Below, piece by piece: positions 29,424-40,823 of a stretch of 44,228 nucleotides of DNA (positions within the stretch are counted from its first letter, which is position 1; each line of letters starts with the position of its first letter). A program made the position numbers and the translations under genes. Under the pieces are notes generated by a model. That model was given only the letters and a program-made list of their open reading frames with translations, was not told the DNA's origin and did not search any database. The stretch is from Chthoniobacterales bacterium (lineage in GTDB: Bacteria > Verrucomicrobiota > Verrucomicrobiia > Chthoniobacterales > UBA10450). The stretch covers positions 1-44,228 of the forward strand of contig JAICUQ010000010.1 in assembly GCA_025935755.1 (NCBI GenBank). Direction: 5' to 3'.

Positions 29424-30392
29424 ATGCGCGACTCAACACCCGGCCTTGGTGCTGATGAGATGACCGTTCGCACACAAGCGCGATCGGTTTCGAGATCATC
29501 CCGCGTTGCCGGAACCGAAACGTGGCGACGGTGGGGCGGCATCGCATTCGCGCTGCTTCTTCTGGCCGTGTTCACCCGGCCGCTGTTGTCCATGTTCCGC
29601 TCTTCGGCGACGAGCGAGCTCAATTCATACACCTTGCTGATCCCATTTGTCTCCGCGTATCTGCTGTATATCCGGCGCGACCAACTTCCAAAGCGTTATG
29701 CCACCGACGTTCCATTTGGAGTGCTGTTTCTGGCGGCGGGGCTGGGAATACTCGCATTTACCTGGTTGTTAGACATCAGAGGGCCAGTCTTGGCGCACAA
29801 CGAGCGGATGTCTTTATCGGCCCTCTCTTTTCTCTTCTGTCTTGTTTCAGGAGGATTTTTCTTTCTCGGTCGGGCCTGGATGCGAGCAGCCGCTTTTCCT
29901 TTAGCCTACCTGATTTTCATGCTGCCACTCCCCGAGCCGGTAGCCGATGCGCTCGAGCAGGCGTCGGCAACTGCCTCTGCCGACATGGCGAATCTTTTGT
30001 TTCACCTCAGCGGTACACCTTTTCTGCGGGAGGGACAAATATTTCAGCTGCCAAATATTACCCTGGAAGTCGCGCAAGAATGCAGCGGCATTCGTTCGAG
30101 CCTGGTCCTGTTCATCACCAGTGTTCTGGCAGCTAATCTCTTTTTGAAGACGACATGGCGGCGCCTGGCGCTGGTCGCCATAGTCATCCCGCTCGGGATC
30201 CTGCGAAACGGTTTTCGCATTCTTGTGATCGGTCTTCTCTGTGTGCACGTGGGCCCGCAGATGATTCACAGTTTGATTCATCGCCGGGGTGGTCCGCTGT
30301 TCTTCGTGCTTTCCCTGGTCCCGCTTCTGCTGGTTCTGTGGTGGTTGCGCCGGGGTGACGGGCAGGCTCGACACCTGAAAGCCGAGACCTAA
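29424..30392 (+). CDS. Exosortase (probable VPDSG/VPDGG-specific, XrtC-like)
   Basis: This 322-residue integral membrane protein has about eight TM helices and the three exosortase catalytic elements: Cys220 in QECSGIRSS, Arg261/Arg265 in LRNGFRI, and His282/His286 in HSLIHRRGG. Exosortases cleave C-terminal sorting tags at the inner membrane, releasing or transferring the protein. Three tagged substrates are encoded at 37740-40111, all with VPDGG, so this enzyme is their natural processor. Assignment to the VPDSG-specific class (XrtC) rests on that context and the likely phylum, not on a profile search. ATG at 29460 is an alternative start. An AATCCGG/CCGGATT hairpin (29385-29405) lies just upstream. 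Confidence 0.88.
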   Translation: MRDSTPGLGADEMTVRTQARSVSRSSRVAGTETWRRWGGIAFALLLLAVFTRPLLSMFRSSATSELNSYTLLIPFVSAYLLYIRRDQLPKRYATDVPFGVLFLAAGLGILAFTWLLDIRGPVLAHNERMSLSALSFLFCLVSGGFFFLGRAWMRAAAFPLAYLIFMLPLPEPVADALEQASATASADMANLLFHLSGTPFLREGQIFQLPNITLEVAQECSGIRSSLVLFITSVLAANLFLKTTWRRLALVAIVIPLGILRNGFRILVIGLLCVHVGPQMIHSLIHRRGGPLFFVLSLVPLLLVLWWLRRGDGQARHLKAET

Positions 30393-30645: not shown

Positions 30646-32742
30646 GTGAGCCCAACCACGATTTTAGCTTTGGCCGCGGCTGGATTCAGTTTGGGTCTAG
30701 CCTCGCTCGGCGCATTTCGAAAAAACCGCTCAATGGCAACATGGTGCTTCGCCATCGGAATGCTGATTTTCGCGCTGGAGAATCTGTTCGGTGCGAAGTG
30801 GCGCGAAGCTGACGTTGCGGAAACGGCAGCATTTTGGGGAAGCCTGACGCTGGTGATGAAAGCGTTGTTTCCCGGTATTTGGATTTGTTTCAGCCTCACT
30901 TACTCCCGGGGAAGTCCGCGCGCGCTGCCGCTGCGGTCGCGTTTGCTCATACTGGCGGCTTTCATTATACCAGTCGGCATATCACTGATCTTCAAAAATC
31001 AGCTACTGCCGGTGTCGCCCTATAGCGACTTTGACGCAAACTGGTGGGTTCGCTCGCACGCGGCGGCCAGGACATTGAATGGGTTTCAGCTCATCTCGGC
31101 GGTTGTGGTCCTGATGAACCTTGAAAGGACGTTCCGATCTGCTGTCGGCACCATGCAATGGAGAATCAAATTCATTGTGATCGGGTTGGGAATCATTTTT
31201 GGAGCGCGGGTTTATACCACAAGCCAGGCACTTCTGTTTTCAGAGGGAATTCTGGTGCTAAGCGGTGTAGACAGCGCGGCACTGCTAATCGGGTGTGCTT
31301 TGATGGTTGTAGCTTTTCTGCGAAGCGGCTTCGGCGAAATCGACGTGTATCCCTCGCATGCTGTGTTACGCACCTCGGTAACGTTTGTCCTGGCGGGAGG
31401 CTATCTGGTCGTGGTAGGTGTGCTTGCCCAGGTAGTCGCGAGCACGGGAAAGGCTGAAGCCTTCGAGCTGCAAACATTGATTGTGTTATTAGCGTTCGCG
31501 GGATTAGCTATCGTGTTACTCTCGAATCGATTCAGACAGAAGATTCGTTCTCTCGTTAGCCGTCATTTCAAAAGACCACAATACGATTTTCGCCAGATCT
31601 GGACACGAGTTACACGCTCCATGTCGAGCGCGTTTGGGCAACCGGCCATGTGTGCCGCGGCGGCCAAATTGATTTCTGAAACCTTCAACGTTTTGTCCGT
31701 ATCGATCTGGTTGCTGGACGAAGACCGTCTGGCATTTGGAGCCTCCACGTCGAGATCGGCCAGTGAGGCCAGTGCAGTCCTTCAAGACCCGCAGCAAACT
31801 TTTGCAAGGATCCGGATGCTTAGGAAGCCTTTCGAGCTGGAAAAAGCGAAAGGCGATCATATTGAAGCGCTCAAACAAATCAGTCTGAACCAATTTCGTA
31901 CCGGCGGGAACCGAATCTGTGTTCCGTTGTGTGCTGGGAATAACTGCATGGGTATAGCCATTCTCGCAGACCGTGTGGGCGGTACACCTTACAGCATTGA
32001 AGAATTCGATCTGCTCAAGTGCATTGGCGATCAGGTTGCGGTAGGTCTGCTAAATCTTCGACTCACTGACGAAATTACGTCCGGCAAAGAGTTGGAAGCA
32101 TTTCAGGCCATGTCTGCATTCTTCGTGCACGACCTGAAAAACGCCGCTTCAACCCTGAGTTTGACGCTCAAAAACCTCCCTCTGCACTTCGACGATCCTG
32201 CGTTTCGACAGGATGTGTTGCGGGGAATTGGAGAAACCACTGAGCGTATCAATCAACTGATAAGCCGCCTCACCGCGTTGAGGCGCCTCGAACTTAATCT
32301 CGCCGAGGTGGACCTGAATTCGGTCGTCGATGATGCCGTGAACGGAATGAATGGCACCCTCAATGTCAGGGTGATGAGAGACTTTCGTTTGCAGCCAAAG
32401 GTCAGGCTGGATCGCGATCAGTTCGGCAGTGTCATCAACAACCTGCTGCTGAACGCGCGCGATGCCGTCGGCTCGGAAGGAGAAGTGAAAATTCAAACGG
32501 CCGCAGAGAATGAATGGGCAATCGTTTCAGTTGCCGATAACGGTTGCGGTATGACTCCCGAGTTTGTCAGGTCATCCTTGTTTCGCCCCTTTCAAACAAC
32601 AAAGAAGAAGGGACTCGGCATCGGAATGTTTCAGTCAAAGATGATCGTCGAAGCCCATCAGGGACGAATTCTGGTAAAGAGCGAACCCGCAGTCGGAACG
32701 ACATTTCGCATAATGCTGCCTTTGAGTACTCAGACTGCATGA
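30646..32742 (+). CDS. prsK: Exosortase-system histidine kinase PrsK
   Basis: The product is 698 residues with a GTG start. Eight or so TM helices occupy the first 290 residues, followed by a GAF-like domain (about 320-480), the phosphoacceptor region FFVHDLKN with His495, and an HATPase domain (INNLLLNARDAVG, DNGCGM, GLGIGMFQSKMIVEAHQG). This order, and the unusual HDLKN H-box, is that of PrsK in PEP-CTERM systems. It would sense a membrane signal and phosphorylate PrsR. The stop overlaps the prsR ATG (ATGA). Confidence 0.92.
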   Translation: MSPTTILALAAAGFSLGLASLGAFRKNRSMATWCFAIGMLIFALENLFGAKWREADVAETAAFWGSLTLVMKALFPGIWICFSLTYSRGSPRALPLRSRLLILAAFIIPVGISLIFKNQLLPVSPYSDFDANWWVRSHAAARTLNGFQLISAVVVLMNLERTFRSAVGTMQWRIKFIVIGLGIIFGARVYTTSQALLFSEGILVLSGVDSAALLIGCALMVVAFLRSGFGEIDVYPSHAVLRTSVTFVLAGGYLVVVGVLAQVVASTGKAEAFELQTLIVLLAFAGLAIVLLSNRFRQKIRSLVSRHFKRPQYDFRQIWTRVTRSMSSAFGQPAMCAAAAKLISETFNVLSVSIWLLDEDRLAFGASTSRSASEASAVLQDPQQTFARIRMLRKPFELEKAKGDHIEALKQISLNQFRTGGNRICVPLCAGNNCMGIAILADRVGGTPYSIEEFDLLKCIGDQVAVGLLNLRLTDEITSGKELEAFQAMSAFFVHDLKNAASTLSLTLKNLPLHFDDPAFRQDVLRGIGETTERINQLISRLTALRRLELNLAEVDLNSVVDDAVNGMNGTLNVRVMRDFRLQPKVRLDRDQFGSVINNLLLNARDAVGSEGEVKIQTAAENEWAIVSVADNGCGMTPEFVRSSLFRPFQTTKKKGLGIGMFQSKMIVEAHQGRILVKSEPAVGTTFRIMLPLSTQTA

Positions 32743-34118
32743 AACCTACGGTCCTCATCGTCGATGATGACGACGCGATCCGCACCCAAACCAAATGGGC
32801 GCTCACCGCGGAGTACGAGGTCTACCTCGCTGAAGATCGCAAACGCGCAGTCGAGGTCTTCACTAGTACTCGGCCTGCGGTCACCTTGCTTGACCTCGGT
32901 TTACCGCCTCGCCCTAACGACCCTGACGAAGGTCTGACCGCTCTGTCCGACATGTTGGCTGTCGATAACACCGCCAAAATCATCGTGATATCTGGACAAA
33001 GTGAAAAGCGAAACGCCATAGAAGCAGTGGGCGCAGGCGCTTACGACTTTCTTTGCAAGCCTGTTGAAATGGATGAGTTAAAACTGCTTCTCCGCCGATG
33101 TCTCAACGTGCTAGACCTTGAGAGGGAATACCTCCAGTTACAGCAAAGCCGGCAACCGGAAATATTCGAGCAGATGCTGGGCACCAGTCCGCAAACGCAG
33201 TCAGTCTTTGCTTTTATTCGCAAGGTCGCGGCAACGGATGTGCCGGCTCTGCTTTTGGGAGAAAGCGGTACAGGGAAGGAAATGGCTGCAGCGGCTATTC
33301 ACAGGTGTAGCCGGCGCAAGGACGGCCCCTTTGTTGCAATTAACTGCAACGCTATTCCTGAGAACCTGTTGGAAAGCGAACTCTTTGGTCACGAAAAAGG
33401 GGCGTTTACTGGGGCACACGTCCAGCGCAAGGGACTGCTGGAGACCGCCAGCGGTGGTACTCTCTTTCTAGACGAGATAGGCGAACTCCCAGCTCCCATT
33501 CAGGTGAAGCTATTGCGATTTCTTCAGGAGCAGCGCTTTCAGCGCGTCGGGGGACGGCAGGAAATTCAAGTGGACACGCGATTGGTCGCAGCAACCAACG
33601 CGGATCTGAAGCAGATGATCGAAAATGGAAAGTTCCGCGAGGATCTGTACTTTCGCCTTGCGGTTGTAACCATCCGATTGCTGCCTCTTCGCGAGCGTGG
33701 TGAAGACGTCCTGCTTTTGGCCCGTGAGTTTCTGCATCGTTACGCTGCGCAAGAGGGCCGCAAAAATCTCGTGTTCGCGCCTGATGCACTGCGTGCCATC
33801 GAGCGTCATTCATGGCCTGGAAATGTCCGGGAACTGCAAAATCGTGTGAGACGGGCGGTGATCATGGCGAGTGGAACGCGGATCGGGGCAAAGGATCTCG
33901 AGCTGGATTCGGTGAGATCCACAACAGTTGCTGGCGGAACAACCCTTCGCCAGGCGCGGGAACAAATCGAAAAGGAGATGATCCAGCAGGCTCTTAAGCG
34001 ACATGCCGGAAAGATCACTTCTGCAGCGGCTGAGCTTGGGATTAGCCGCCCAACTCTTTACGAATTGATGGACAAACTCGGCGTCGGCAAAGACCGCGCC
34101 ATGATAACTGAAAACTGA
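32739..34118 (+). CDS. prsR: Sigma-54-dependent response regulator PrsR
   Basis: The ATG at 32739 is coupled to prsK by ATGA, giving 459 residues. The receiver domain has VLIVDDDDAIR and phospho-Asp52 (LLDLGLPPR). The AAA+ domain has Walker A GESGTGK (174-180), the sigma-54 contact loop GAFTGA (221-226) and Walker B GGTLFLDEIGEL. A Fis-type HTH ends the protein (AGKITSAAAELGISRPTLYE). It activates sigma-54 RNA polymerase from upstream sites. Three sigma-54 promoters in front of the VPDGG genes in this window are its obvious targets. Confidence 0.95.
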   Translation: MKPTVLIVDDDDAIRTQTKWALTAEYEVYLAEDRKRAVEVFTSTRPAVTLLDLGLPPRPNDPDEGLTALSDMLAVDNTAKIIVISGQSEKRNAIEAVGAGAYDFLCKPVEMDELKLLLRRCLNVLDLEREYLQLQQSRQPEIFEQMLGTSPQTQSVFAFIRKVAATDVPALLLGESGTGKEMAAAAIHRCSRRKDGPFVAINCNAIPENLLESELFGHEKGAFTGAHVQRKGLLETASGGTLFLDEIGELPAPIQVKLLRFLQEQRFQRVGGRQEIQVDTRLVAATNADLKQMIENGKFREDLYFRLAVVTIRLLPLRERGEDVLLLAREFLHRYAAQEGRKNLVFAPDALRAIERHSWPGNVRELQNRVRRAVIMASGTRIGAKDLELDSVRSTTVAGGTTLRQAREQIEKEMIQQALKRHAGKITSAAAELGISRPTLYELMDKLGVGKDRAMITEN

Positions 34119-34130
34119 CAAAATAAACTC

Positions 34131-37100
34131 ATGCAAAGACCGATGCTGCTCAGAATCGTAACCGTCGCTTTCGCCGTTATTCTTGTTACTGCCTGTTCCA
34201 AGGAAGCGAAAAAAACACGTCTCGTTAGGGACGCGGATACTTATTTCAAGGCGGGTAACTATGACAAAGCGAAGGTGAGCTACCTCAATTTGCTTCGCCT
34301 CGATCCGCAAAATGCGCTCGCCTTCGAACGAATCGGCGCAATGTGGCAGGATGACGGTGTCCCGCTTCGTGCAGCTCCATTCTTAAAAAAAGCGAGCGAG
34401 CTCGACCCGAAGAACATTGAGAACCGTATACGTTTAGCACGTTGTTGCATCGCGGTGGGTGCTTTCAACGAAGCGAAAAAGGAAGCAATTGAAGCGCTTC
34501 AGCAAGAGCCCGCAAACGGCGACGCGATAATGATCCTGGCCGAAGCGGCTCATACCAAAGAGGACCTCGAGGACGCGGCCCAACGGATCGAAAAATTCCC
34601 TAACAGGAACGGCGTCGCTTTTCACCTAGCATCGGCTAGCGCTTTCCTGCGCAAGGGGAACGCTATGGCAGCTACGATCTCTGTTCGACAGGCGCTTCAA
34701 ATCGATCCTAAATCGTCCGCCGCACATATGGCCATGGGCGACCTGCACCTGTTCCAAAAGGACACAAAAAAAGCTGCCGAAGAATACAAGGAAGCGGCGG
34801 ACCTTGCTCCGATACGATCAACTGAAAGACTGAAGTACGCAGCTTTCAAATCCGCGATCGGGGATGCACAGGAAACACGCAGGGTGGCCGGCGAGATGAC
34901 GAAGCAGGTTCCAGATTACCTTCCTGGGTGGGTCTTGTTAGCGGAGCTCGCGTTGAAGGACAAGAAGTATGACGAAGCGCTTTCGCATCTTGAAAATGTG
35001 TTTGGGCGCGACCCGGAATACGTAGATGGCCGCAAATTGCAAAGCGAAATTCTTATGGCAAAAGGCCAGACCAAGAAGGCAGTGGAAGTTCTCGAGCGTC
35101 TCGATCGAGCTCACCCCGCGATTCCCATCATCAAATTTCAGTTAGCGCGTGCGTATTTCAAAAATAACAACGTGAACCAAGCGAAGCTTACCTTGGAACA
35201 AACAGTGTCGAGTAATCCGAATTATGTGGACGCGGTGTTGATGCTTGCTGAGATCAACATTCGCACCGGCCACAGCGATTTGGCGATCGAACCGCTGCAG
35301 CGGATATTACATACGTATCCGGCACAAACGCGCCCGGCAATGCTCCTGGCTACCGCGTACGGCATTTTAGATCGCCCCGATGATGCCGCCGCTGTACTTC
35401 AAGAGCAGGCGCAGCTGAGCCCTAACGATCCTAACCCATACGCAGCACTGGGTCTAACCTACCGTCGCGCGAAGAGGTACGATGAAGCACGCCAGCAATT
35501 TGAAAGGGCGAAGCAACTAGACCCGAATAATGTCGCGGTGTTCACGCAACTCGTGGAACTCGATCTGCAACAGAAACACTTTGACGCGGCGCGACAGAGA
35601 ATACGAAGCCAGTTTCAAGGAAAGACTGATTCGGCTGATGCTCACTTTTGGGAAGCAAGAGTGCTGGCATCAGAAGGTAAATGGGATGGCGTCGAGAATG
35701 AACTTCGGCAAACGATCAAGAGCAATCCCAATGTTCCGGGCACGTATGAGCTGCTCGTACAAGCCTATATCGCGACCAACAAACTTCCGCAGGCAGTGAA
35801 GGAACTTGAAGAATTGTTAGCGAAAGAACCAAACAATTCGCAAGCACTGATGACACTCGGACTGATCTATGAGCGGACGAAGGATTATCCAAAGGAGCGA
35901 GATGTGTACGAGAAGCTTCTCGCGATTGACCCTAACTTTGTTCCTGCCTTAAACAACCTCGCTTACCTGTATGCCGAGCGTTTCAACGACCTGGACAAGG
36001 CATACGATCTGGCGCGTAAAGCTCACGACCTTCAACCGCAAGAGACTTCTGCGGGCGATACCTTCGGGTGGGTTCTTTATAAACGCGGCGAGTATCAACA
36101 GGCCCTTCCCATTCTACAGGAGAGCGCTCAAACGAGTGATAACCCAGAGATTCAATTCCACCTCGGTATGACCGCATACATGATGGGCCAGACGGAACTC
36201 GCTAAAACTGCTCTGCGAAAAGCTGTGGATTCAGCGAAGGATTTCGAGGGGAGGGAAGAAGCGAAAGGCCGTCTTATTTCGCTTGAAACAGGCAAGTCTG
36301 AATCCCCGCGGCTATCCATAGCTCAACTCGAAGCAACGACCAAACAACAACCTAACGACCCGGTGTTGCAGATCCGGCTCGGCGAAGCTTACGAAAAACA
36401 AGGCGCATTCGATAAGGCAGCTGTGGCTTTTGAGGAGGCATTGAAACTGAATCCGAAGCTTCCAGTCCCGCCCACCAAGCTCGCCGAGCTCTATGCCGGG
36501 CCGCTTCAAAATAGCGAACGGGCATTGGTGTACGCGAAGAAGGCGCGGGAGCTTGTACCGAACGATCCGCGGATCACAACTCTGCTTGGTAAGGTCGCGT
36601 ATCAAGTTAGTAACTTCGCGTGGTCGTATAGCCTCCTGCAGGAAGCAGCGCGCCAGCGCGGAGATGATCCGGCAGTTCTAGATAGTCTGGCGTGGTCCGC
36701 TTACGCCATGGGAAAAGTGAACGAAGCTCGTGACCTGATGCAGAAGGTTGCCGCAGCAGGCGGAAATGCCTCAGAGGCTGCCGACGCGAAAAAGTTTCTG
36801 ATGTTTACCGAGGATCCCAAACAGCCTGGTGGCGAAGGTGAGGTGCAAAAGGAACTCACGTCCAACCCGGGTTACGTGCCTGCCTTGATGGTTCAGGCCG
36901 CGCTTTATGCACAACAGGGTCGAACTCAGCAGGCGATTGAGACCGATACCAAGGTGCTGCAGCGTTTTCCCGACTTTGCGCCGGCTCAAAAACACCTCGC
37001 GATTTTGTATGCTCAGGACCCGTCAAAAGTCACCGCAGCATATGAGAATGCGATCAAAGCCCGCAAGACGCTACCTGATGATCCCGAGCTAGCCGAGCTT

Positions 37101-37337
37101 CTCGGTCGTCTGAGTTATGAGAAGAAGGAGTACCCGCGTGCGGTGCAGTTGTTACGGGAAGCAGGGCGGACAAAAACGCTGGACGCGAATTCTTTGTTTT
37201 ATTTGGGGATGTCGGAACTCCGCGCGAGGCAGAGCACCGAGGCGCGGGTAGTTCTCGATAAGGCATTAACGAGCGGTCTTCAGGAACCTTTTGCTACCGA
37301 GGCAAAGCAAGCTCTTGAAAACTTGAGCAGGGAGTAG
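34131..37337 (+). CDS. prsT: TPR-repeat lipoprotein PrsT
   Basis: This 1068-residue protein has a leader with a good lipobox (VILVTACSKE), so it is probably a lipoprotein. The rest is a long array of more than 20 tetratricopeptide repeats (ADTYFKAGNYDKAKVSYLNL, ALGLTYRRAKRYDEARQQFE and similar, with the A-x-x-x-Y/F, L-x-P pattern). PrsT accompanies prsK/prsR in exosortase loci and is thought to scaffold envelope proteins. It begins 12 bases after prsR and ends the operon; a 402-base gap with regulatory sites follows. Confidence 0.9.
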   Translation: MQRPMLLRIVTVAFAVILVTACSKEAKKTRLVRDADTYFKAGNYDKAKVSYLNLLRLDPQNALAFERIGAMWQDDGVPLRAAPFLKKASELDPKNIENRIRLARCCIAVGAFNEAKKEAIEALQQEPANGDAIMILAEAAHTKEDLEDAAQRIEKFPNRNGVAFHLASASAFLRKGNAMAATISVRQALQIDPKSSAAHMAMGDLHLFQKDTKKAAEEYKEAADLAPIRSTERLKYAAFKSAIGDAQETRRVAGEMTKQVPDYLPGWVLLAELALKDKKYDEALSHLENVFGRDPEYVDGRKLQSEILMAKGQTKKAVEVLERLDRAHPAIPIIKFQLARAYFKNNNVNQAKLTLEQTVSSNPNYVDAVLMLAEINIRTGHSDLAIEPLQRILHTYPAQTRPAMLLATAYGILDRPDDAAAVLQEQAQLSPNDPNPYAALGLTYRRAKRYDEARQQFERAKQLDPNNVAVFTQLVELDLQQKHFDAARQRIRSQFQGKTDSADAHFWEARVLASEGKWDGVENELRQTIKSNPNVPGTYELLVQAYIATNKLPQAVKELEELLAKEPNNSQALMTLGLIYERTKDYPKERDVYEKLLAIDPNFVPALNNLAYLYAERFNDLDKAYDLARKAHDLQPQETSAGDTFGWVLYKRGEYQQALPILQESAQTSDNPEIQFHLGMTAYMMGQTELAKTALRKAVDSAKDFEGREEAKGRLISLETGKSESPRLSIAQLEATTKQQPNDPVLQIRLGEAYEKQGAFDKAAVAFEEALKLNPKLPVPPTKLAELYAGPLQNSERALVYAKKARELVPNDPRITTLLGKVAYQVSNFAWSYSLLQEAARQRGDDPAVLDSLAWSAYAMGKVNEARDLMQKVAAAGGNASEAADAKKFLMFTEDPKQPGGEGEVQKELTSNPGYVPALMVQAALYAQQGRTQQAIETDTKVLQRFPDFAPAQKHLAILYAQDPSKVTAAYENAIKARKTLPDDPELAELLGRLSYEKKEYPRAVQLLREAGRTKTLDANSLFYLGMSELRARQSTEARVVLDKALTSGLQEPFATEAKQALENLSRE

Positions 37338-37466: not shown

Positions 37467-37482
37467 GTCAGGATTCCTGACG
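37467..37482 (+). promoter_or_regulatory. Candidate PrsR enhancer (palindrome)
   Basis: GTCAGGATTCCTGACG is part of a perfect palindrome CGTCAGG-ATT-CCTGACG (37466-37482). It matches 12 of 16 positions of the element GTCGGATTTCCTTACG found before the second VPDGG gene. It lies about 200 bases upstream of the sigma-54 promoter, within the usual enhancer range. Confidence 0.5.
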
Positions 37483-37680
37483 TATTCCTTAGGCAGGCAT
37501 AACAGGTTGGGATCGTGGAGCCTACCGATCGTATCTCTTGGGGCGTTGGAAAGGTTTACGCCTCAGTCGCGCCTGTTCGGCTGACGTGCGCCATTTAACT
37601 TATGATTCTTGATCTTTTGGCATGTGTAACGCCCTACACATCAGACGCTTTCATTTTGGTGAATGGAATGCAGAAACGAT

Positions 37681-37696
37681 TGGCAAGGAGATTGCT
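37681..37696 (+). promoter_or_regulatory. Sigma-54 promoter of the first VPDGG gene
   Basis: TGGCAAGGAGATTGCT matches the -24/-12 consensus TGGCACG-N4-TTGCW, with GG-N10-GC spacing exact. It ends 43 bases before the ATG at 37740. The other two VPDGG genes have the same element at a similar distance. Confidence 0.85.
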
Positions 37697-37739
37697 CTCT
37701 AGGTTACCGAAATCGGACCGAACCAACCATTCAATATAC

Positions 37740-38297
37740 ATGAACAAATTAAAATACCTGACAATCCTGTTAGTTGCGGTCGCCGGGCTCGGTCTCCAAC
37801 AAGCTCAGGCGCACCTGTTAGACCCCGTGCAATTCTTCACCGCCAACCCGATTGGGAGCGGGACCTCGGAGAATACTTTTCTCCAAGGTCAAGGCTTCTT
37901 ACCTGGAACCTCCCAGTATCTCGGGAAACGTGAAGACAGCGGAGTTTTTGAAAGTGGAGCCATCAACATCTCACAATTCGTTACCGTGACAGTCCTCAAT
38001 TCGAGCACCTGGCAAATCTCCTGGAACCTGACTGGAAGCGGGTTCACTTTAGACGGTGTCTTGATTAAGGACGGTGCTGTTAATCAACAGCAACTGTATC
38101 GATTCTATGGTGTCTCAGCCGACGAAGCGCTGGTCGGGTCGGGCACAGTTACGTTCGACGACCCGGTAAGAGGCATTTCGCACCTGTCCTTTTTTGGGTC
38201 TCCAGGCCAGGGCGTCCCTGATGGCGGCGCAACGGTAATGATGTTAGGCGCAGGTCTTGCCGCCTTAGGCATGGTTCGGCGTTATTTGAAGAGTTAG
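37740..38297 (+). CDS. Exosortase substrate, VPDGG-CTERM protein (first)
   Basis: The ATG at 37740 (185 residues) is chosen because it gives a clean signal peptide (MNKLKYLTILLVAVAGLGLQ, cleavage near AQA) and lies downstream of the sigma-54 promoter. The C-terminus is a full sorting tag: GVPDGGATVMMLGAG, a TM helix, then basic RRYLKS. The middle is a beta-rich secreted domain of unknown function. It would be exported by Sec, held at the inner membrane and processed by the exosortase. It is the first of three such genes; its 3' region is nearly identical to that of the second. Confidence 0.9.
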   Translation: MNKLKYLTILLVAVAGLGLQQAQAHLLDPVQFFTANPIGSGTSENTFLQGQGFLPGTSQYLGKREDSGVFESGAINISQFVTVTVLNSSTWQISWNLTGSGFTLDGVLIKDGAVNQQQLYRFYGVSADEALVGSGTVTFDDPVRGISHLSFFGSPGQGVPDGGATVMMLGAGLAALGMVRRYLKS

Positions 38298-38374
38298 CCA
38301 GCAAAGCGTCCCGGTCCTCGCGAAGCTGGAAAGCAAGGTGGCTGTTCCTCTGGGACAGCCACTTTGTGCTTTTA
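38298..38374 (+). repeat. 77-bp 3'-UTR repeat, copy 1
   Basis: This block starts one base after the stop and matches 39157-39233 at 74 of 77 positions. It contains a CCAGC/GCTGG stem and the terminator hairpin. One difference turns an A-U pair into a G-U pair, so the fold is kept. Confidence 0.9.
38335..38373 (+). terminator. Rho-independent terminator after the first VPDGG gene
   Basis: AAGGTGGCTGT pairs with ACAGCCACTTT across a 9-base loop, followed by GTGCTTTT. The T-run is short and interrupted, so moderate strength is expected. Confidence 0.8.
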
Positions 38375-38448
38375 GAAGAGGGCTGTAAGCCCGCATGAAG
38401 GGATCAGAAGTGCGGCCAGCCGCCCAAGTCAGGCTCGCCCGCCAATTC

Positions 38449-38484
38449 GTCGGAACATCTTACGCTTAGTCGGATTTCCTTACG
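38449..38484 (+). promoter_or_regulatory. Candidate PrsR enhancer, tandem pair
   Basis: Two direct units, GTCGGAACATCTTACG (38449-38464) and GTCGGATTTCCTTACG (38469-38484), start 20 bases apart, about two helical turns. The same pair precedes the third VPDGG gene. The distance to the sigma-54 promoter is about 112 bases. Confidence 0.65.
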
Positions 38485-38595
38485 CAAATCGTTGAGGTCA
38501 CATGGAGGCGTCCCTCCAGTCGGTTTACCTGCAAGCTGTTACTCGGTCGACGTTTGTGGCTCATTCTGACTTGAACAACGACAGGCGACGAGAGT

Positions 38596-38611
38596 TGGCA
38601 GGCTCCCTGCT
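38596..38611 (+). promoter_or_regulatory. Sigma-54 promoter of the second VPDGG gene
   Basis: TGGCAGGCTCCCTGCT has exact GG-N10-GC spacing and a near-consensus -24 box; the -12 box has CTGC in place of TTGC. It ends 31 bases before the ATG at 38643. Confidence 0.82.
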
Positions 38612-38642
38612 CTTATTAGTTACAAAGACAGAAAGCATAAAT

Positions 38643-39140
38643 ATGAAATCATTGAAATACCTCGTAGCCATCGGCGCAGTAATGGCTGCCTTGACGATGT
38701 CAGCTAAGGCCGATCTCAACTTCCTCGGAGCAGTCGACTTCAACAATGGGCCTAACAGTCCGGAAGCCAATCTTGCTGCATTAGCCGCCTTTGGCGTTGA
38801 TACTACAGGCTTAACCCTTGTAACTAACCTTGAAAATCTCAGCGGAAACCAAACGATTTCCGTAACACCAGGTGAATACCTTGTTGTCCACTACGGCGTG
38901 GGGCCGGGAGGCAAAGGTCACGGTGGCAGCCTGGAGTTCTTCCAAGTTATCAATGGAGAAACAGAAGTAACTGTCCCTGGAATGGGCAATGTTGCAGGTC
39001 CTGATCCATTCGGTCATGGCGGCATTTCCTCCATAAGGGGATTCGCTGCCCAAGGCGTTCCGGATGGAGGTGCCACTGTCATGCTGCTCGGCGCAGGCCT
39101 GAGTATGCTCGGCTTGGTCAGGCGGTATCTGAAGAGTTAG
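38643..39140 (+). CDS. Exosortase substrate, VPDGG-CTERM protein (second)
   Basis: The 165-residue product starts at the ATG at 38643, behind the sigma-54 promoter. It has a signal peptide (MKSLKYLVAIGAVMAALTMS, cleavage near AKA), a Gly/Asn-rich secreted middle (GVGPGGKGHGGSLEFFQ), and the tag GVPDGGATVMLLGAGLSMLG followed by RRYLKS. The tag is almost the same as in the first protein, but the bodies differ, which fits modular exchange of a sorting cassette. The secreted part is not recognised as a known domain. It may be a matrix component displayed with the polysaccharide. Confidence 0.9.
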   Translation: MKSLKYLVAIGAVMAALTMSAKADLNFLGAVDFNNGPNSPEANLAALAAFGVDTTGLTLVTNLENLSGNQTISVTPGEYLVVHYGVGPGGKGHGGSLEFFQVINGETEVTVPGMGNVAGPDPFGHGGISSIRGFAAQGVPDGGATVMLLGAGLSMLGLVRRYLKS

Positions 39141-39156
39141 TTATTTCGTAAATTAA

Positions 39157-39233
39157 CCAGCAAAGCGTCCCGGTCCTCGCGAAGCTGGAATGCAAAGTGG
39201 CTGTTGCTCTGGGACAGCCACTTTGTGCTTTTA
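39157..39233 (+). repeat. 77-bp 3'-UTR repeat, copy 2
   Basis: This is the second copy of the 38298-38374 block, with 3 differences in 77 bases, starting 17 bases after the stop. The terminator stem is fully paired in this copy. Confidence 0.9.
39194..39232 (+). terminator. Rho-independent terminator after the second VPDGG gene
   Basis: AAAGTGGCTGT pairs with ACAGCCACTTT over a 9-base loop, followed by GTGCTTTT. Confidence 0.82.
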
Positions 39234-39328
39234 CAAGCTAACCTTCATCATACAGATCTCGACCGAGCGACCTTAACGTCGTGAGGTCTTTCAGCGGCTA
39301 CACGCTTAAGGATGGCACCACAGGATTC

Positions 39329-39363
39329 GTCGGAATGTCTAACGATAGTCGGATTTTCTTACG
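39329..39363 (+). promoter_or_regulatory. Candidate PrsR enhancer, tandem pair
   Basis: GTCGGAATGTCTAACG (39329-39344) and GTCGGATTTTCTTACG (39348-39363) lie 19 bases apart start to start. They match the pair at 38449-38484. They end about 100 bases before the sigma-54 promoter. Confidence 0.65.
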
Positions 39364-39462
39364 AAATATCCGGCCGGCGCGGGGAGCGTGAAGAGTCAAT
39401 ATTCGACGGTAACTAACTGACTGTCATCGGCTTGTATCAATTTTCTTCAACGCGCGACGGGT

Positions 39463-39478
39463 TGGCATCCCTATTGCT
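39463..39478 (+). promoter_or_regulatory. Sigma-54 promoter of the third VPDGG gene
   Basis: TGGCATCCCTATTGCT is an excellent match to the -24/-12 consensus with exact GG-N10-GC spacing. It ends 30 bases before the ATG at 39509. Confidence 0.88.
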
Positions 39479-39508: not shown

Positions 39509-40111
39509 ATGAAACATCTAACAAAAACTATATTAGCAGTTCTCGTTGCCGGCGTTGTCAGCAGTGCTTTCTCCCCGCAGCAAGCTGAAGCGGCACGCAT
39601 CAACGGTACCATCGACTTTGCTGGCGCAGTACAATTTGACACAGGAGGTGGTGGCCTCGCGACCGCCAGTAGCGTTGTGCAATGGCGCGATGTGTTTGGC
39701 AACGCCGGTTTCTCGAATGTGGCAGATGTCACCGGCGATTTTTCCGGCATCGCGTTGGGAACGCAGGCGCTTATGGCTACTCCTTGGACATTTAATCCTT
39801 CCACATTTACACCTGGCCTTTGGAGCGTCGGCGGGTTCACATTCGACCTGCTCAGCTCGGTCGTAATAACGCAAACCCCCAATTTTCTCAACATCTCGGG
39901 TACGGGCACCATTAGCGGAAACGGGTTTGACCCTACCACTGCGAACTGGGCTTTTACGGTTCAGGATGCTGGAGGTATTCATCCGTTTTTCAGTTTTTCC
40001 GCCAATGCGGCAACGCAAGGTGTGCCTGATGGAGGCTCGGCAGTCGCCATGTTGGGGATCGGTCTGGGCTTGGTTGAATTGATACGACGTAAGTTCTGCT
40101 TCCGCGGCTAG
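39509..40111 (+). CDS. Exosortase substrate, VPDGG-CTERM protein (third)
   Basis: This 200-residue protein starts at the ATG at 39509. It has a signal peptide (KTILAVLVAGVVSSAFSP, cleavage near AEA) and a beta-rich body (INGTIDFAGAVQFDTGGG). The tag is GVPDGGSAVAMLGIGLGLVE followed by basic LIRRKFCFRG. It is the most divergent of the three tags and lacks the shared 77-bp 3' block, having its own strong terminator. The body resembles many secreted VPDSG/PEP-CTERM proteins of unknown function. It is probably co-regulated with the other two by PrsR. Confidence 0.9.
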   Translation: MKHLTKTILAVLVAGVVSSAFSPQQAEAARINGTIDFAGAVQFDTGGGGLATASSVVQWRDVFGNAGFSNVADVTGDFSGIALGTQALMATPWTFNPSTFTPGLWSVGGFTFDLLSSVVITQTPNFLNISGTGTISGNGFDPTTANWAFTVQDAGGIHPFFSFSANAATQGVPDGGSAVAMLGIGLGLVELIRRKFCFRG

Positions 40112-40133
40112 GGCATCATTTGAGGAGTTTTCG

Positions 40134-40167
40134 CCGGGCAGGATGCAAATCCTGCCCGGTTTTTTTT
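40134..40167 (+). terminator. Strong Rho-independent terminator
   Basis: CCGGGCAGGAT pairs perfectly with ATCCTGCCCGG over a GCAA tetraloop, followed by eight T residues. It ends the third VPDGG transcript and separates it from the convergent NusG-like gene. Confidence 0.95.
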
Positions 40168-40289: not shown

Positions 40290-40823
40290 TCAGGCCGGAA
40301 GCACTCTTGCTGTCGATACGTCGATTTCGATCGATCGCCCAAGAAAATCGAGCAGCACTCGAATGCGTTCTTTGGCAGGCAACACTTGAGTGATCACGAC
40401 CTCCAAGCCACGGAACGGCCCGTCGATGATATGAACTGGTTGGCCAACCTTGAGCGAGGAATCGATGGTAACGACTTCTTCTCTTCCAGCATATGATTGA
40501 AGCGCAATCACGGTGTCCTCTGGTAATGTTGCCAGACGATCTCCAAAACGGACGATTCCTCTGATTCCGTGAGAGCTTTCAACAGCCCGACGCTGTGTGG
40601 GATAACTAAATTTTGCAAACAAGTACCCGGGAAACATTGCCTCAACAAACCAAACCGGTCCTCGTTGCGTCAGCTTACGGAATCGCAGTCTTGGCGACAG
40701 AGACTCGATTCCAAACAGCCGACGCAATGATATAGCGGCCAAATGTTCTCGTTTCGGCTCGGCCCTAAGACAAAACCACACCGGATCGTCCACCAGCGCG
40801 AGCGCAGCAGCAGACTGCGTCAC
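40290..40823 (-). CDS. NusG/RfaH-like transcription antiterminator
   Basis: This 177-residue protein on the minus strand is a specialised NusG paralogue. The NGN domain has WFCLRAEPKREHLAA, RGPVWFVEAMFPGYLFAKF and GIRGIVRFGD. The KOW part has VGQPVHIIDGPFRGLEVVI and LLDFLGRSIEIDV. RfaH and UpxY-type proteins let RNA polymerase read through long polysaccharide operons. It is the only convincing minus-strand gene of the window and is placed next to an EPS locus, so it may control the 10248-27255 operon. It is read divergently from yajC, with a 100-base gap. Confidence 0.85.
   Translation of the reverse strand: MTQSAAALALVDDPVWFCLRAEPKREHLAAISLRRLFGIESLSPRLRFRKLTQRGPVWFVEAMFPGYLFAKFSYPTQRRAVESSHGIRGIVRFGDRLATLPEDTVIALQSYAGREEVVTIDSSLKVGQPVHIIDGPFRGLEVVITQVLPAKERIRVLLDFLGRSIEIDVSTARVLPA

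Follow-up and report, generated by a model that had tools for sequence, protein, structure and literature searches.

The stretch analyzed here (the window) is the 44,228 nucleotides (nt) of contig JAICUQ010000010.1 from a Chthoniobacterales bacterium of the phylum Verrucomicrobiota, in which three genes for predicted exported proteins with a VPDGG tag at the C-terminus (genes 1, 2 and 3) lie downstream of genes for an exosortase, the histidine kinase PrsK and the sigma-54 activator PrsR. The question raised by this locus is whether PrsK, PrsR and the sigma-54 factor RpoN control these three genes, a logic known from Proteobacteria, for which the available text of Haft 2006 (PMC1569441) describes PrsK, PrsR and PrsT together with a motif 1 and a motif 2 in front of PEP-CTERM genes. 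An earlier note on this DNA had proposed such a circuit for the VPDGG genes but had missed the upstream words described below. The proposal was supported by the comparisons presented here, all of them of sequence, and the presence of an enhancer-dependent PrsK/PrsR/sigma-54 regulon of VPDGG-tagged exported proteins, sorted by an XrtC-like exosortase, is considered very probable.

Promoter sites in front of the substrate genes

Sites with exact GG-N10-GC spacing were found precisely where the earlier note had placed them, at positions 37681, 38596 and 39463, and they precede the start codons (ATG) at 37740, 38643 and 39509 by 43, 31 and 30 nt, matching the 30 to 43 bases that had been given. 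Also borne out were the identification of PrsR and PrsK upstream and of VPDGG-tagged substrates, all scoring above the cut-offs of their models (Table 1), and the extent of the circuit, which had been put at about 11 kb and measured 10.7 kb from the start of the exosortase gene to the end of gene 3. RpoN is encoded elsewhere in the genome (TIGR02395, 426 bits, cut-off 277.35). The exosortase was confirmed as a member of its family (PF09721), but the best of the 13 NCBIfam models that matched it, TIGR04151 (XrtC), gave a score below the cut-off for that name and the protein is therefore termed XrtC-like.

The promoter pattern by itself proves nothing, because it was enriched neither in the window, where TGGCAYRN4TTGCW with up to two mismatches was found 23 times (22.2 expected), nor in the genome, where TGGCAN7TGCW gave 44 matches as opposed to 64 for the reversed control. 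The consensus TGGCAYR-N4-TTGCW suggested in the earlier note was therefore given no weight as a loose pattern, and it is position that counts. Over 2 x 3.67 Mb, the 44 matches amount to about 6e-6 per position and strand, or by hand calculation to about 1 in 4,000 per 60-nt stretch, yet a strict site was present ahead of five of the genome's six VPDSG candidates, i.e., the three window genes and one gene each on contigs C53 (VPDAG) and C134 (VPDGG). The sixth candidate, on C206, was without a strict site; its score of 20.8 bits is under the family cut-off of 25, and by eye it follows closely on another open frame. No sigma-70-like site was seen before genes 1 to 3, the two weak matches being one inside gene 1 and one on the opposite strand. 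The reading of these sites as chance GG-N10-GC matches, with transcription starting elsewhere, draws on the finding that TGGCAN7TGCW is no commoner in the genome than its reversal; it is extremely improbable in view of the placement before five of six candidates, the lack of sigma-70-like sites in front of the three genes and, as detailed below, the absence of reversed matches before 50 genes of relatives and the coupling of the promoter to an upstream word.

The gene on C53 (L008, G000 C53:62868-64450), which would make a fourth member of the regulon in this genome, is a surface-protein-like open reading frame of more than 500 codons, repeat-rich by eye, with VPDAG at its end.

Upstream words

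The strongest evidence for PrsR over another activator as the partner of these promoters was provided by an upstream word of the approximate form GTCGGA-N4-YTTACR, often present in pairs. Genes 2 and 3 each have a pair with starts 19 to 20 nt apart, one of the four words being off by one letter, the C53 gene has a pair 18 nt apart with each word off by one letter, and the C134 gene carries the word GTCGGAGCTTTTTACA. For the five genes of the window's genome, the copy nearest to the promoter was 88 (C134), 96, 99, 111 or 120 nt away.

The word was also evident from a de novo count of 6-mers before VPDSG genes, for which regions sharing many 12-mers were dropped (56 of 60 kept, 50 of the 56 from PrsR-positive genomes). 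CGTCGG occurred in 25 of the 50 regions with 4.9 expected, the maximum for any 6-mer in 60 shuffles being 22, and the ten most enriched 6-mers included GTCGGA (21), TGGCAT (15), TGGCAC (13) and CTTACG (13). A matrix was also built from 16 sites in other genomes. With it, the five VPDSG promoters took ranks 1 to 5 (15.0 to 20.4 bits) of the 42 sigma-54-like sites scored in the window's genome, and the best site not belonging to a VPDSG gene scored 8.9 bits; the 42 do not include a site lying too close to the end of its contig and one on C263.

Similarity of upstream regions could also arise from recent duplication of genes together with their upstream DNA and not from selection on a control circuit, as might be suspected from the 98-nt tail that genes 1 and 2 have in common at 90% identity and from the close copies among some genes of genomes G082, G135 and G443. 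This explanation is very improbable, however, since the 6-mer count was made after regions rich in common 12-mers had been removed, no kinship of the word-to-promoter spacers is apparent by eye apart from those of close copies, the C53 gene has the same layout although it does not resemble the genes of the window, and the combination of word and promoter is found in five genera of a single family as well as in three genomes outside the order.

Of 31 word-to-promoter spacers (L163-L186, L326-L330), 7 contain a weak common word, TCGTAA or AATCGTAA (0.85 expected), which in several of them is about 40 to 50 nt before the -24 box and near an AT-rich stretch. It is perhaps the site of a bending protein or of a second regulator.

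Distribution of the elements within the order

The higher frequency of promoter sites before VPDSG genes implied by the earlier note was seen in the PrsR-positive genomes of the window's order. Thus, among 50 VPDSG genes above the family cut-off with enough upstream DNA, the strict promoter was present in 23, the word in 26 and both in 19, with no match for either reversed pattern, whereas of 126 other open reading frames of at least 150 codons (from the window and nine PrsR neighborhoods) four had the promoter and eight the word, the stretches scanned being unequal in that they averaged about 800 nt for the VPDSG genes and 410 nt for the other frames, which were taken from both strands and are not all real genes. 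Three of the four promoter-bearing frames also had the word and proved to be tagged genes overlooked by the filter, with VPEGG, TPDSG and a tag cut short at VPD. Five further VPDSG genes with truncated upstream DNA gave neither strict promoter nor word, as opposed to two matches of the reversed promoter pattern, and two of 12 genes below the cut-off had the promoter and two the word. For nine VPDSG hits in PrsR-negative genomes, two of them with truncated upstream DNA, the word was seen in none and a promoter-like site in one (G143).

The composite of word and promoter was searched in 147 genomes of the order, with fixed patterns and gap ranges of 31. It was present in 9 of 10 PrsR-positive genomes (24 sites) as opposed to 3 of 137 PrsR-negative genomes (one site each; Fisher p 3e-11), and the reversed control gave two matches in all 147. 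By hand count, 17 of the 24 sites precede an open reading frame with a VPDxG-like tag (VPDGG, VPDNG, TPDSG, IPDGG, VPEGG, VADGG or VPDAG) or one cut at a contig end after ...GVPD; three more precede a tagged gene with an interrupted frame, and three meet a contig end first. The composite also led to a tagged gene (L174) that the tag profile had not listed. Word and promoter are 75 to 126 nt apart in relatives, and the gene order PrsK-PrsR-PrsT is kept in all nine other PrsR loci of the order.

Use of a long open frame as the mark of a chance match was tried and rejected, sites in PrsR-positive genomes also reaching 260 codons; only 9 of 11 composite matches in PrsR-negative genomes, with open frames above 260 codons, were clearly marked as chance by frame length. 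The interrupted VPDSG frames behind composite promoters (G135 C152:5675, G135 C249:54160 and G145 C125:5675) may reflect assembly error, phase variation or decay. Genome G119 has 17 VPDSG and 22 PEP-CTERM hits; because few of these have a composite promoter, some other form of control must apply to much of its cargo.

PrsR kinship and the proteobacterial word

In a tree of PrsR sequences, those of the ten genomes of the order together with one from an uncultured Pedosphaera formed a single clade (branch values 100/99), beside which lies a clade of Pseudomonadota and Malonomonas sequences (94/82), and both fall within a PrsR group of 24 entries (100/100). The grouping with Pedosphaera, together with the tag and exosortase families, is what points from the sequence to Verrucomicrobiota as the phylum of the window's genome. 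All nine scored members of this group of 24 from outside the window's order pass the PrsR cut-off, and the helix-turn-helix word RPTLY or a one-letter variant was noted by eye in 24 of 24 entries of the group and in one of 15 others (L205). One PrsR from a contig labeled Chloroflexi (L190) groups inside the Gammaproteobacteria, and the label of that bin may therefore be wrong; misbinning and transfer are both possible.

The corresponding proteobacterial word was not seen inside PrsR neighborhoods but emerged from a genome-wide search for TTTACA followed by a sigma-54 site in 15 named genomes, 13 of which encode a PrsR-group protein, L200 and L201 falling outside that group. There were 23 matches compared with 4 for the reversed pattern. 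At 14 of these 23 sites, TTTACA has a GTC that begins 10 nt ahead of it, whereas GTC was absent from the eight other offsets tested, and an open reading frame with PEP or PAP near its end follows 6 of these 14 sites as opposed to one of the other nine. The layout recovered was TGTC-N7-TTTACA, mostly with R and then G or A after GTC, and the gap between TTTACA and promoter in the 14 sites was 50 to 74 nt (searched range 48 to 78). A word layout common to Proteobacteria and the window's order, with drift, is thus indicated by the sequences compared. In the search of 80 PrsR-like loci from named organisms, the one composite match, in a Planctomycete (L219), was unlike the motif and was discarded.

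These results bear on the possibility that the promoters, although dependent on sigma-54, answer to an enhancer-binding protein other than PrsR. Sigma-54 sites alone name no activator, and the window's genome yields 22 loose first-look PrsR-like candidates, but such a partner is unlikely given that word plus promoter tracks the presence of PrsR (9 of 10 versus 3 of 137 genomes), that the layout resembles that of proteobacterial PrsR genomes, that PrsR is encoded beside the substrate genes and that, according to the available text of PMC3333781, five predicted PEP-CTERM targets of DVUA0057, a predicted PEP-CTERM regulator of Desulfovibrio vulgaris, were enriched in a binding assay. The latter system differs from the PrsR circuit proposed here in phylum and tag, and no binding motif was validated for it in that text.

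Occurrence beyond the order

Eleven of 387 genomes of the phylum have PrsR, and ten of the eleven are outside the window's order. In a scan of the PrsR neighborhoods of these ten (stretches of 4 to 20 kb), for which the gap was widened and the patterns were relaxed slightly, nine tagged open reading frames (VPDGG, VPDSG or VPDGA) were found in G296, G333, G443, G491 and G496, and all nine had the word, the promoter or both. Composites with gaps of 97 to 123 nt preceded tagged genes in 3 of the 10 genomes, one each in G296, G333 (VPDGG genes in both) and G443, and the word gave 15 matches in 373 kb of strand compared with 5 for its reversal. The composite from the G443 neighborhood is additional to three from a phylum-wide search, which precede frames ending in VPDAG, VPDSG and VPDSG, the last two being close copies; the frames behind the G443 sites end in VPDAG or VPDSG. 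The occurrence of gaps of 97 to 123 nt in these three genomes also means that long gaps extend beyond the genus of the window. In G296, a composite (L346, C3) was noted before a very long open reading frame (1365 codons within the stretch) with no visible VPDxG tag.

Cargo class

Among the ten PrsR-positive genomes of the order, six gave a total of 73 PEP-CTERM hits, 30 of which were examined. Neither promoter nor word was found before any of the 20 genes with enough upstream DNA (one of them, L318, read in the wrong frame), as opposed to the word before 26 of 50 VPDSG genes (p 1.6e-5). However, G119 and G092 supply 17 of the 20, and in these two genomes the word precedes just 4 of 19 VPDSG hits; the contrast within genomes (0/17 versus 4/19) is therefore weak. 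The single PEP-CTERM hit of the window's genome had neither element. The data are suggestive of PEP-CTERM genes of these Verrucomicrobiota genomes lying outside the regulon. The wider proposition, that PrsR and its enhancer code are common to Pseudomonadota and Verrucomicrobiota, with the cargo exchanged, in that the word marks PEP-CTERM genes in the one phylum and VPDSG genes served by an XrtC-like enzyme in the other, where PEP-CTERM genes are left out, is given a little better than an even chance.

Observations that weigh against the proposed regulon

Several findings run counter to control of the VPDGG genes by PrsR through the upstream word. Gene 1 holds only diverged copies of the word, of which the proximal one, GTTGGAAAGGTTTACG, scored 15.0 bits with the matrix from other genomes, a value that never arose when the 241-nt stretch was shuffled letter by letter 2000 times. 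A proteobacterial matrix (12 hand-picked sites, two of the full 14 having been missed) ranked the best window site only fourth, which is why drift between the two layouts is assumed. The strict composite is missing before 31 of the 50 above-cut-off VPDSG genes, and the regulon is therefore partial or the patterns are too strict. G092, a PrsR-positive genome from another family of the order, has the word with no composite match, and behind one of the 24 composites, G099 C13, there is no tagged gene. In the phylum as a whole, the search with a gap of 62 to 92 nt found the composite in only 2 of 11 PrsR-positive genomes, the window's own and G443, and as single sites in 8 of 376 PrsR-negative genomes (reversed control 3), the negatives of this search being weak because sites with gaps of 97 to 123 nt were missed. 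Lastly, neither a tagged gene nor a composite was found in the stretches scanned of G448, G324, G379, G514 and G526.

Behind the G099 C13 composite (L167, C13:1946-2066), a sugar-transferase-like frame was noted about 1 kb on.

Comparison with described systems

The closest described system is the PrsK/PrsR/RpoN regulon of PMC1569441 (statements here refer to the available text), which has the same kinase, activator and TPR protein families and consists likewise of mostly single-gene operons with long upstream DNA. Its motif 2, with GG at -24 and GC at -12, has its counterpart before three of three window genes and five of six candidates in the genome. Motif 1 is described as 17 nt ending in TTTACA, sometimes repeated and followed by the sigma-54 motif 2; the word found here is a possible counterpart, with the same layout but a consensus that tends to GTCGG and, in the window, to CTTACG. 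The gap between the two motifs was given as 62.8 +- 10.6 nt (32 to 92), a range exceeded by four of the five genes of the window's genome, the C134 gene (88 nt) being inside it. The cargo tag here is VPDGG as opposed to PEP, and the exosortase is XrtC-like. Among the species discussed in that text the motifs were common only to Proteobacteria, and its table shows no PrsK, PrsR or PrsT for Verrucomicrobium spinosum.

For pepA of Aquincola tertiaricarbonis, the available text of PMC9850573 reports a start site mapped behind TGGCAC and CTGCTT boxes and rpoN1-dependent transcription. PrsK and PrsR in the genome and an enhancer-like sequence upstream are points of likeness to the window, whereas that organism is a proteobacterium with PEP-CTERM cargo, and the dependence demonstrated in that text concerns rpoN1 only. 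With the VPDSG-CTERM/XrtC system (PF18205, TIGR03778, TIGR04151) the window has in common the tag family and the best-scoring exosortase model, and differs in that the exosortase is under the XrtC cut-off (257/300) and gene 2 under that of TIGR03778 (19.7/22). The word exosortase does not occur in the available text of a survey of sigma-54 regulons (PMC12316311), and the open-license literature searched yielded no paper describing control by sigma-54 or PrsR, either of VPDSG genes or within Verrucomicrobiota.

The window gene cluster

Coordinates of the cluster are given in Table 1. Those of PrsR are of the open frame, in which homology starts at about 32751; the protein lies inside the PrsR clade of the tree. 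The exosortase has Cys (QECSGIRSS), Arg (RNGFRI) and His (HRRGG) residues that are kept in all five aligned homologues and that we take to be catalytic. By eye, the proteins of genes 1 to 3 begin with a signal-peptide-like segment and close with VPDGG followed by a hydrophobic stretch and basic residues. The genes upstream include some for polysaccharide export, glycosyltransferases and epimerases.

Table 1. Features of the window assigned to the proposed circuit, with positions in the window
Feature	Position	Strand	Score or remark
Exosortase, XrtC-like	29424..30392	+	PF09721 167 bits (cut-off 25.7); TIGR04151 257 bits (cut-off 300)
PrsK, histidine kinase	30646..32742	+	TIGR02916 397 bits (cut-off 300)
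PrsR, activator with receiver, sigma-54 AAA+ and Fis-type HTH	32544..34118	+	TIGR02915 591 bits (cut-off 502.6)
PrsT, TPR protein	34131..37337	+	TIGR02917 364 bits (cut-off 312.2)
Possible distal upstream word, gene 1 (GTCAGGATTCCTGACG, palindromic)	37467..37482	+	13.5 bits, other-genome matrix; 198 nt ahead of promoter
Probable proximal upstream word, gene 1 (GTTGGAAAGGTTTACG)	37545..37560	+	15.0 bits, other-genome matrix; 120 nt ahead of promoter
Sigma-54-type promoter, gene 1 (TGGCAAGGAGATTGCT)	37681..37696	+	GG-N10-GC
Gene 1, signal peptide-like N-terminus, VPDGG C-terminal tag	37740..38297	+	PF18205 31.1 bits (cut-off 25)
Hairpin 3' of gene 1, likely unit end	38334..38366	+	Not called by terminator prediction
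Upstream word 1, gene 2 (GTCGGAACATCTTACG)	38449..38464	+	131 nt ahead of promoter
Upstream word 2, gene 2 (GTCGGATTTCCTTACG)	38469..38484	+	111 nt ahead of promoter
Sigma-54-type promoter, gene 2 (TGGCAGGCTCCCTGCT)	38596..38611	+	GG-N10-GC
Gene 2, VPDGG C-terminal tag	38643..39140	+	PF18205 25.1 bits (cut-off 25); TIGR03778 19.7 bits (below cut-off 22)
Hairpin 3' of gene 2, likely unit end	39193..39225	+	Not called by terminator prediction
Upstream word 1, gene 3 (GTCGGAATGTCTAACG)	39329..39344	+	118 nt ahead of promoter
Upstream word 2, gene 3 (GTCGGATTTTCTTACG)	39348..39363	+	99 nt ahead of promoter
Sigma-54-type promoter, gene 3 (TGGCATCCCTATTGCT)	39463..39478	+	GG-N10-GC
Gene 3, VPDGG C-terminal tag	39509..40111	+	PF18205 33.4 bits (cut-off 25)
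Terminator-like hairpin and T run 3' of gene 3	40133..40160	+	Terminator prediction

The 90% identical stretches after genes 1 and 2 (38281-38378 and 39140-39237), with one hairpin each, probably arose by tandem duplication. An RfaH/NusG-like gene adjoins the cluster (40290-40823, minus strand), above the cut-off of PF02357 and below those of the named NCBIfam models; specialized NusG proteins often serve polysaccharide operons.

Proposed circuit and its meaning

In the circuit proposed, PrsK would sense a signal and phosphorylate PrsR, which would bind copies of GTCGGA-N4-YTTACR, often in pairs, the nearest ending 88 to 120 nt before the promoter; the word itself and its tie to PrsR are supported by comparison between genomes. 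Bound PrsR would then loop to sigma-54 RNA polymerase on the TGGCA-N7-TGCT promoter, and the promoters so activated would drive single genes for proteins that end in VPDGG and are presumably exported. The XrtC-like exosortase, encoded beside PrsK and PrsR and near polysaccharide genes, is predicted from its family to cut and sort the tagged proteins. In the window's genome, the regulon would extend to other contigs with at least two further genes, those on C53 (VPDAG) and C134 (VPDGG).

The regulatory logic is known from Proteobacteria, while its use in Verrucomicrobiota for VPDSG cargo and the longer enhancer gap appear to be new. The VPDSG tag class, for which no control circuit was found described, would thereby gain a likely one, and a surface-protein regulon would be extended to a largely uncultured phylum. 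The DNA signature would also allow exosortase cargo to be searched for without reliance on a short protein tag. Finally, if two phyla have this circuit in common with different cargo, the question of what PrsK senses becomes a sharper one.

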